NCBI GenBank assembly: GCA_001768565.1
Contig: MEOE01000007.1
Coordinates: forward strand, 62,001 to 126,000
Direction of reading: 5' to 3'
Source: Bacteroidetes bacterium GWF2_33_16
Lineage (GTDB): Bacteria; Bacteroidota; Bacteroidia; Bacteroidales; UBA12077
Length of the DNA: 64,000 bases
In this document: one piece after another, positions 59,901-61,237 of the stretch
Numbering within the stretch: the first letter of the stretch is position 1
Layout of the letters: the number at the start of each line of letters is the position of its first letter
Notes under the pieces: model-generated
Database searches by the model: none
Told to the model about the DNA's origin: nothing
What the model saw: only the letters and a program-made list of their open reading frames with translations
Program-made: the position numbers and the translations under genes

Positions 59901-60291
59901 AGATGAACGCTATGATGAAATTAATTCAGGAAAAATAACTCTTAGAGGTGGTTGGCGAGTTTATTCAAGTGGCCCTGGTATTTATATTGGGCTGATAATT
60001 TCCAGAATGCTCGGCCTGCGAATTGAATTTGGGAAAGTTATTATTGATCCAGTAATGCCCCTTTCGTTTGATGATATGTCGGTAAATATAGATTTTATGG
60101 GTTATCCTGTTAATCTAACCTATAAAGTAAAAGAAAACGGATTTAGCCCTAAATCGATAGTAATTAACGGGAAAAAGATTTCATTTGATTACGAAGATAA
60201 TGTTTATCGTAAAGGCGGAGCAGTTATTCTAAAAGAACAATTTTTAGCCATGATGAATAAAAAAGAAAATAGGGTAGAGATTCAATTATAG
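56968..60291 (+). CDS. GH94 phosphorylase, putative 1,2-beta-oligoglucan phosphorylase
   Basis: A 1107-residue cytoplasmic enzyme (no signal peptide). An N-terminal super-beta-sandwich region to about 570 leads to the (alpha/alpha)6 barrel with GAAWGTRDVSQGP, NPDGGWPQWWM, the catalytic-acid motif GGGDWNDSL (Asp 751, Asn 753, Asp 754), and SSSDVAFKSRYDA near the end. GH94 enzymes cleave beta-glucosides with inorganic phosphate. Cellobiose phosphorylases are about 800 residues; the length near 1100 fits 1,2-beta-oligoglucan phosphorylases. Products would be glucose 1-phosphate and a shortened glucan, which saves ATP. It is the last gene of the locus. Confidence 0.87.
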   Translation: MKINSPTGLSISLLNNGSIKSIEVDPIRISLQAATPYSKLGANIYVRKRTNPPEFKALVGPESNSQFEICGDTIIAKGSWNGLSYKCTLQLSNTSLSWQWQIDIKNVTDSDLGLDLIYLQDIGLKPAVENSINEYYVAQYIERLILEDEKYGSVICCRQNMKGPTGNPWVMLACKNAASSASTDGMQFYGKSYKVAGVPEGLVGDLLGGEYAGESPIVALQEKPFALAPNGNHSSTFVGCYLPDHPEATSDKDLSKLSKLFIEFDGSKTFQSKGKTFIPQKNIFNTSPLLPVEDLSIKELKQFFGENWRHQEEDNGKLISFFYNQNSHVVLRSKVKLVDRPHGHIMQAKAGYIPDENIVSTTSYAYGVFNSHLTQGNTNFNIFLSVSSSQFNLSTETGQRIFVEIDGQKYLLGVPSAFEMGLNYCRWIYKQGDFCLQVRTWTSKTAPQVNLDIKLISGSNVKLLITHHFDENNGWTLSQGNSPKEFIAKPKSESLITSKFPNAQFKILVQESDSDFTVYNDDSNNNRLFIIDVQETSYFCMSFLGEVCNTTQAVSIVNSDIQWQSDCRDAQSVWQDLSLNLSIKGDQKDLAAIREILPWFGMNALTHYLTPYGLEQFSGAAWGTRDVSQGPIDLLLNLNKYDEARKVLLIIFSNQNPDGGWPQWWMFDSYANIRAHEAHGDIFYWCIIALSNYIKVTDDLKILDEVLPYYSEDGKNRIEKTTLSEHVDRLINMIIDSFIKGTSLVPFGGGDWNDSLQPVSSELAQQMISSWTVEMNYQAFSQYQAVYEMLGKTGQAEKLKNSCERIRNDFNKFLVKDGIVAGYGLVEKDGSMSVLLHPTDKLTGIHYSILPMNRGIISGIFTKEQAQYHQLLIEQHLKGPDGARLMDRPLKYKGGIQTIFQRAESSTFFGREIGLMYVHEHIRYAESLAIMGKAEAFVKALRQAIPVGYRDIVPSGYIRQSNCYYSSSDVAFKSRYDADERYDEINSGKITLRGGWRVYSSGPGIYIGLIISRMLGLRIEFGKVIIDPVMPLSFDDMSVNIDFMGYPVNLTYKVKENGFSPKSIVINGKKISFDYEDNVYRKGGAVILKEQFLAMMNKKENRVEIQL

Positions 60292-60588
60292 GATTTCCCT
60301 CATTTTTGATTTTTAAATATTAGTATCAATTAAAACGCTCCTGTGTTCAGAAAATCAACTTGTTTGCGATCAAATTAAATAGTTGTGGAGTTAGGTTATA
60401 GGATCAAGACATAAGTTCAGGATTTGGTTTATAATAAATAAAATTTAGTTAGTTTTTATAGGAAAAAAGCAACATCTCTCAATCTTATTGATTTTTTTTT
60501 AAATTTAACATTAGGAATTCAGCAGCATTTGTTGTTTTAAGCAATAAATACAAACTTATTTAATTAAAATTGTAATTTCTATTTTACA
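60292..60588. other. Gene-free AT-rich spacer after the locus
   Basis: These 297 bases have no plausible gene, no clear terminator for the GH94 gene and no promoter match. Confidence 0.4.
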
Positions 60589-61005
60589 ACTTTTTTGGCT
60601 TGATCCAAAAAAGTAACAAAAAATCCCGATAGCTATCGGGACAAGACAAAACGATACTTCCACGCTCTCTGCGATAAGCAAACAATTCCTCCCAAAGTAA
60701 GCAAGCTCCTTTGTCGGAATCCTAATGCTTATCACATTCACCCTGCCCTATGGCTCGTCGTTTTGTCATGCCTGCGCTCAATAATCCGCATCTGATAAAT
60801 TTGTTTCAAAAATCAAGAAAAACATGTGCGGGATAGGTCAGGTAAGCAACACTCAGTCTCGACATACAATGATTAATTAGAATAATAAATTAACATCGAG
60901 ACGACTTGTGTTGCGCTGAATAACAGGTTTTTCTATGATTTTAACAAATCTGTCAGTGGCGGTGACTTTTTTTGGTTCTTTTTTGTGTGGCTGACAAAAA
61001 AGAAC
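60589..61005. repeat. Structured intergenic element with nested inverted repeats
   Basis: About 420 noncoding bases, richer in G+C than their flanks. A hairpin opens it (ACTTTTTTGG 60589-60598 with CCAAAAAAGT 60605-60614), and a perfect 18-base palindrome follows (60624-60641, TCCCGATAG core). A first nest pairs 60645-60654 with 60758-60767, 60673-60680 with 60726-60733, 60685-60689 with 60716-60720 and 60693-60697 with 60709-60713. A second nest pairs 60799-60805 with 60943-60949, 60809-60823 with 60927-60942, 60846-60852 with 60908-60914 and 60856-60862 with 60896-60902. A closing hairpin pairs 60975-60986 with 60994-61005. It could be a repeat family of Bacteroidota intergenic DNA, a MITE, or a structured RNA. 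Confidence 0.65.
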
Positions 61006-61237
61006 TTAATATATTAGAACTAATTGATTTCCTTCACACCCTTTAGTCCCGAAAACTTTCTTGAGGGGCAAATGAAGAAAATCACAAGATATCTATACAG
61101 AAATAGAAACGGACAATCATTTTTAATTAATCACCAATCATTTTTCATTACATTTCCTGAAATTCACGTTGAATTATAATATAAAATTTCTAGAGGGGAA
61201 TTGATTTAGTTTTTGTAAAAGCGAAAAACGATAGAAA
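61006..61237. other. Gene-free spacer downstream of nadB
   Basis: No gene is seen. An 11-base direct repeat (CAATCATTTTT at 61114-61124 and 61135-61145) is the only pattern; no strong terminator for nadB was found. Confidence 0.4.

Follow-up and report, generated by a model that had tools for sequence, protein, structure and literature searches.

A folded noncoding module carried by a decayed ISL3-family MITE in Bacteroidetes bacterium GWF2_33_16 and found independently of it in other Bacteroidales families

The window analyzed here is the whole stretch of 64,000 nucleotides presented above, from Bacteroidetes bacterium GWF2_33_16 (labelled G000 in our genome set). Near its right end, a noncoding element sits between two convergent genes, which end at 60291 and 61238. 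The original prediction stated that no gene explains this element, and indeed the sole overlapping open reading frame of at least 50 amino acids is an unsupported 61-aa frame. A coding explanation was also rejected because indels between copies, such as a TT insertion in L038, break any frame. The features of the locus are as follows.

60401 to 60424, plus strand: left terminal inverted repeat of an ISL3-type MITE (GGATCAAGACATAAGTTCAGGATT; diverged), from alignment with the sharp left ends of sister copies and the left end of the insertion sequence L064.
60401 to 60575, minus strand: diverged remnant of the 3' end of an ISL3 transposase gene, which would read on the minus strand (insertion sequence nt 1-92 against 60401-60491, 73%).
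60589 to 60614, no strand: left T-rich hairpin (ACTTTTTTGG/CCAAAAAAGT); within G000, only core-bearing copies show this exact pattern.
60624 to 60641, no strand: 18-bp perfect palindrome TCCCGATAGCTATCGGGA, a putative mobile REP-like insert, missing in 3 of 8 aligned copies.
60642 to 60770, no strand: domain M1, closed by GACAAAACGA/TCGTTTTGTC, with an inner hairpin at 60673-60734; seen within the genus only.
60785 to 60968, minus strand: domain M2, a long interrupted stem with the conserved internal loop CGCANNNCAAGYCGT...ACT...TGCTT (minus strand), recognized by covariation and distribution.
60974 to 61005, no strand: right CT-rich hairpin (GGTTCTTTTTTGT...ACAAAAAAGAAC) that accompanies M2, as judged from a count of hairpins of at least 8 bp beside M2.
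61006 to 61031, plus strand: final stretch common to sister MITE copies, from their alignment; the right terminal inverted repeat is absent here.

It had been claimed from the letters that long-range complementary arms form two nests between two T-rich hairpins, with an additional 18-base perfect palindrome, and that this is more structure than chance allows. The two hairpins are present (the right one, at 60975-61005, has 12-bp arms that are 100% complementary), the palindrome was confirmed, and the two nests correspond to M1 and M2. The region 60575-61010 folds with z = -6.5 on the plus strand and z = -8.2 on the minus strand relative to dinucleotide shuffles, and none of 100 shuffles was as stable on either strand. 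Because folding goes far beyond that of the shuffles on both strands, the flagged structure stands. Two details had to be revised. The flagged stretch is real, but the repeat is bigger and runs from 60401 to about 61031. The palindrome is present as described, but in the aligned copies it behaves as a separate presence/absence insert outside the conserved fold. Directly after the MITE remnant, at 61024-61084, lies a separate hairpin repeat (TGATTTCCTTCA...TGAAGAAAATCA), copies of which are also found in L026 and, beside a lone 18-bp palindrome, at G000:C23:48205.

The element is multicopy, with four copies in G000 (the window and contigs C5, C6, and C23) and more in relatives. A search of 59 genomes gave matches at an E value of 0.001 or better in 15, many of them to the short palindrome alone; long copies were present in G000, G001, and G019 and partial ones in G010. 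Homology between the aligned long copies spans about 570 to 850 bp, with sharp ends well beyond the flagged coordinates; each end is about 24 bp long, and the two are imperfect inverted repeats of one another (GGATCAAG...). In the window copy, the left end is at 60401, homology ceases at about 61031, and the right end is lost. Searching with the left-end pattern revealed a 1424-bp element on contig C9 of G000 (L064) that has both ends and encodes a DDE_Tnp_ISL3 protein (PF01610, 6e-47; ISAon1 model, 2e-109), its 248-aa frame being without the first 92 model positions. Core-bearing copies match nt 1-173 of L064 at the left and its last ~56 nt at the right, and therefore the core occupies the place of the middle of the transposase gene. 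Sister copies keep frames of the transposase C terminus. An 8-bp target duplication is usual for ISL3 elements. Such a duplication was found in all eight core-bearing copies with both ends, exact in six and at 7/8 in two (the window copy is not included, as its right end is lost), whereas random flank pairs match at 8/8 with a frequency of 0.0008 and at 7/8 with a frequency of 0.005. One of these eight copies, L043 of G010, has different ISL3-like ends, and the insertion sequence copy L064 shows no target duplication (4/8). These results show that the insertion reaction of the sister copies makes 8-bp target duplications and that the window element is a decayed, nonautonomous ISL3-family (ISAon1-type) element in which the middle of the transposase has been replaced by a folded noncoding module. 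It shares its ends with the transposase-encoding L064 (in the window, the left end matches), it is present in several copies, and it has no functional transposase gene. The suggestion of a MITE-like mobile repeat was thus right for the carrier.

The core itself does not derive from the insertion sequence. Comparison with L064 revealed nothing core-like within it, partial and diverged cores lie inside other ISL3-type ends in G010, and in L085 the core and the ISL3 end point in opposite directions. When genome contigs were scanned for exact M1 matches, 13 loci were recovered; they match the genus copies, and every one is in a MAG with the label Bacteroidales or Bacteroidetes. The M1 pattern gave no match in viral contigs. 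Across 19 copies, 7 of the 21 inner pairs of M1 show double changes; the G-U frequency depends on the fold, with 1/387 for the plus-strand fold and 23/425 (5.4%) for the minus-strand fold. The 18-bp palindrome differs in L009 and is replaced by other sequence in L010. Two copies of TCCCGATAGCTATCGGGA at G000:C13:393333-393533 (L007 and L155) are located with a 131-aa remnant of a Y1 (RAYT-like) transposase, one of them inside its frame, a placement in and around the remnant that would fit a REP-like insert. In Bacteroidetes and other phyla, tnpA genes of subclass 2.4 are reported to contain REPs (PMC6006769). Extra palindromes (CCTGCCTGCCGGCAGGCAGG and CTTGCCTGCTGCAAGCAGG) have been inserted into T-runs or the tips of hairpins in the core, and only some sister copies have them (L010, L042, L002, and L003). 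There is also a third folded module, M3 (CCGAAATGAG...TTCATTTCGG), which is joined to M1 or M2 in either orientation (L014 1-250, L034, and L012), and therefore the modules shuffle. In G014, a repeated structured element combines a second T-rich hairpin with an M2-like domain, seen in L108 and half present at a contig end in L115; L115 differs by an insertion of roughly 200 bp.

M2 and its CT-rich hairpin exist independently of the ISL3 MITE; they occur in other families of the Bacteroidales and also, within the same class, in a second order. A covariance model was built from 14 M2 copies, and a second model was used for the phylum search. Among 393 genomes of the order, the first model found M2 in at least 6, of which 5 belong to other families. 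Among 395 genomes of the phylum, the second model found it in at least 3, including 2 that lie in the same class but not in the order. Of 19 chosen genomes, 16 gave M2 matches, with copy counts that include reverse-strand echoes. From 109 matches, we dropped nine reverse-strand echoes, one duplicate place, and one low-scoring copy (L285 2601-2786), leaving 98 copies in 15 genomes. G374 has 19 copies, G051 about 27, and G093 about 12, and M2 lies at many other intergenic places in these three genomes and in G365, G190, G706, and G749. At the loci inspected, M2 copies are intergenic and no flanking transposase was seen by eye, save for a transposase-like frame several kilobases away in L250. Beyond the genus, the borders of M2 are fuzzy and no duplications could be defined. 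Of 95 copies (those with at least 60 nt of flank), 74 have a hairpin of at least 8 bp on the RNA-5' side of M2, and 9 have one on the opposite side. In G749, there are 15 copies across two contigs, including ten on the same strand in a polysaccharide-type gene cluster (L243 6172-16343, G749:C5; gene types judged by eye).

In three loci (L298, L236, and L250), one and the same small gene is immediately followed by M2, with variable cargo alongside. In L298, L299, and L250 (G015, G018, and G365), one neighbor of M2 is a TPR-like gene that is conserved across two families, and on the other side lies differing cargo, which by eye consists of restriction- and ATPase-like genes; this suggests a shared insertion hotspot. 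Apart from one small gene in G015, G018, and G365, the recurrent ORFs near M2 were rejected as translated repeats. In G051, a 280-bp tandem repeat with 3.4 copies, built of small palindromes, adjoins M2 (L167 395-1351). Plasmid and phage records gave no match. Two viral-contig stretches that match the M2 pattern were dismissed as chance, since the model does not support them and the contigs are ORF dense. Rfam 15 gave no family at the gathering score, and up to an E value of 10 there were only chance matches of the microRNA or snoRNA type. The literature searches gave no description of the element among the matches listed (for three of them, the best 8 of 23, 10 of 25, and 10 of 59). Judged by the Rfam and literature searches, the latter covering the listings and passages of PMC6006769, PMC3733652, PMC2864571, and PMC4596501, M2 is a new family. 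The proposal that the element could be a chromosomal-organization site found no support. The orientation of M2 agrees with the local GC skew in 15 copies and opposes it in 24 (39 copies; skew is weak in these genomes), and it is unrelated to the coding majority.

A single-copy region with no covariation would have spoken against the structure, and M2 is neither. In an alignment of 27 copies fitted to the model, 32 of 44 pairs show double changes, a level reached in 0 of 500 shuffles; 93.2% of the cells pair, and 195 cells carry a double change compared to 50.3 in the shuffles. Within the genus, 96.2% of the cells pair in 14 copies, and double changes occur at 14 of 44 pairs (again 0 of 500 shuffles). 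The signal is gone when the partner is slid by 1 to 3 columns. Most of the 15 genomes keep the internal loop CGCANNNCAAGYCGU...ACU...UGCUU, while G706 and G749 carry variants of it. This shows that the stems of M2 change in sequence while Watson-Crick pairing stays, around an internal loop that is nearly constant.

In RNA, single changes to G-U are expected to be common. We counted G-U on the modelled strand; A-C there corresponds to G-T on the other strand. In the 27 copies, G-U makes up 13 and A-C 16 of 1180 cells; the count was made over all 44 pairs and separately for a 39-pair subset without five badly fitting pairs. In the 98 copies, the counts are 48 and 113 of 4201, and the 26 copies of G051 account for 66 of the 113 A-C cells. 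For comparison, RNase P sequences of the same order (30 genomes), treated by alignment and RNAalifold, have 248 G-U (10.1%) and 17 A-C (0.7%) in 2453 cells; under the same unfitted procedure only 14 pairs of M2 were recovered, with no G-U and 4 A-C of 378, in agreement with the other M2 counts. As both G-U and A-C are rare in M2, we infer that the constraint acts on a DNA fold, either a single-strand hairpin or a cruciform, and not on a transcript. The original prediction of a structured RNA holds for the conserved fold and its strong covariation, but the near-absence of G-U points to a fold at the DNA level.

It is still conceivable that M2 acts at the RNA level, as a true structured noncoding RNA or a transcript-processing element, and that it became multicopy via mobile elements and lacks G-U by an accident of descent. 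Strong covariation around a fixed internal loop would be expected of such an RNA, folding is more stable on the minus strand than on the plus strand, and in the genus-level set G-U is slightly above A-C. Moreover, all 15 copies in G749 lie on the strand of the surrounding genes, except that one gene (L245 5865-6326) is opposite. In other genomes, however, there is no constant relation to the flanking genes (where these are codirectional, M2 is opposite in 14 cases and on the same strand in 5). Of the hallmarks of an RNA family, M2 has the compensatory changes, but it matches no Rfam family, and its G-U frequency of about 1% is some 10 times lower than that of RNase P by the same kind of count. 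We regard an RNA as unlikely.

Within the DNA reading, the main alternative is a mutational process that perfects inverted repeats. Replication template switching could make the palindromes a by-product and the elements inert cargo of the MITE; it would yield Watson-Crick-only double changes and strand symmetry, and many small palindromes have indeed been gained and lost. Such a process leaves the constant loop unexplained, as repair of the arms would not spare an unpaired loop that is nearly constant in 15 genomes while the stems vary, and the hairpin on one side of M2 also speaks against it. This makes it improbable as a full account. Still less probable is that M2 is an attachment or recombination site of a tyrosine recombinase, read as an attC-like folded strand. 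Such a site would suit the two short stems, with their unpaired spacer and variable tip, the ten same-strand copies within 10 kb in G749, reminiscent of cassettes, and the variable cargo beside the small gene. However, no attC-type R box appears to be kept, as the outer stem bases vary, and most copies are dispersed singly.

The reading we prefer, to which we assign a probability of roughly 45%, is that M2 is a folded-DNA element that hitchhikes in an ISL3 MITE and serves, while single stranded, as the substrate of an enzyme supplied in trans. This enzyme may be an HUH (Y1) transposase, a type that recognizes folded single strands. A trans-acting enzyme of this type, most likely of the kind that mobilizes REP repeats, would read the folded single strand and copy and spread M2. 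The ISL3 MITEs of the genus would have picked up the module as cargo, which would give it a second route of spread, and the small palindromes inserted at A-runs and hairpin tips may represent a further, REP-like layer. M2 gave no match around 21 Y1 genes from 6 genomes, and no Y1 frame was found in the ORFs of 124 M2 loci (many overlapping). The link between M2 and Y1 is therefore by analogy only, and a Y1 transposase is put forward as a candidate partner. The more stable minus-strand fold, which an RNA might also show, the fuzzy M2 borders beyond the genus, and the orientation of M2, which is unlinked to GC skew, likewise weigh against the preferred reading. Also rejected as a link was a T-rich hairpin close to a Y1 gene in G018 (L109/L154), since it is part of another palindrome set. 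By eye, the M2 alignments lack a GT[AG]G foot at a 20- to 40-bp hairpin. According to the passages of PMC6006769 considered here, the Bacteroidetes subclass 2.6 is flanked by atypical structures that are repeated in the genome and are without this foot.

A broader claim is possible but rather doubtful, namely, that M2 with its CT-rich hairpin represents an undescribed class of mobile folded DNA in the Bacteroidota, about 220 nt long and without a protein or inverted ends, which has a dedicated enzyme for its single-strand fold, is patchily distributed across orders, forms arrays, and hitchhikes in ISL3 MITEs. If true, this class would be the DNA counterpart of a structured RNA family, recognizable by covariation without wobble, and the enzyme that reads the fold would be a new target to find. 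A fold like M2 (~184 nt, in several families of one phylum) would normally be classed as a new RNA, and the near-absence of G-U may offer a simple sequence-only test that separates DNA folds from RNA folds. The case also shows an ordinary insertion sequence capturing and spreading a folded module.

How does this compare with known systems? Insertion sequences of the ISL3 family (ISAon1 type) and their MITEs share with our element the terminal inverted repeats and a transposase remnant of the matching family, and with its two-ended sister copies the 8-bp target duplication, but the interior is here a folded module that has a different origin and is also found where these ends are absent. BrickBuilt of Porphyromonas gingivalis, as presented in the passages cited from PMC4596501, is likewise a Bacteroidales MITE with predicted long stem-loops and terminal inverted repeats like those of a resident insertion sequence; it differs in that 23-nt tandem repeats give rise to the stems and the terminal inverted repeats are listed beside an IS5-type element. 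The structured-RNA motifs of Bacteroidetes in the 2010 survey (PMC2864571, in part) are also covarying noncoding motifs of this phylum, whereas M2 matches no Rfam 15 family at the gathering score. Integron attC sites resemble M2 in that one strand folds into two stems with an unpaired spacer between them and the tip is variable, and the same-strand arrays of G749 are a further parallel; boxes, stem length, and the accompanying hairpin set them apart. Finally, REPs and REPtrons, with their TnpA_REP/RAYT transposases of the HUH Y1 type, are hairpins of 20 to 40 nt, while M2 has about 184 nt plus a hairpin and no Y1 gene beside it at the loci searched; what they have in common is that they are dispersed, noncoding, folded repeats with pairing that looks DNA level, and that in the genome studied here a small palindrome lies in and around a Y1 remnant.
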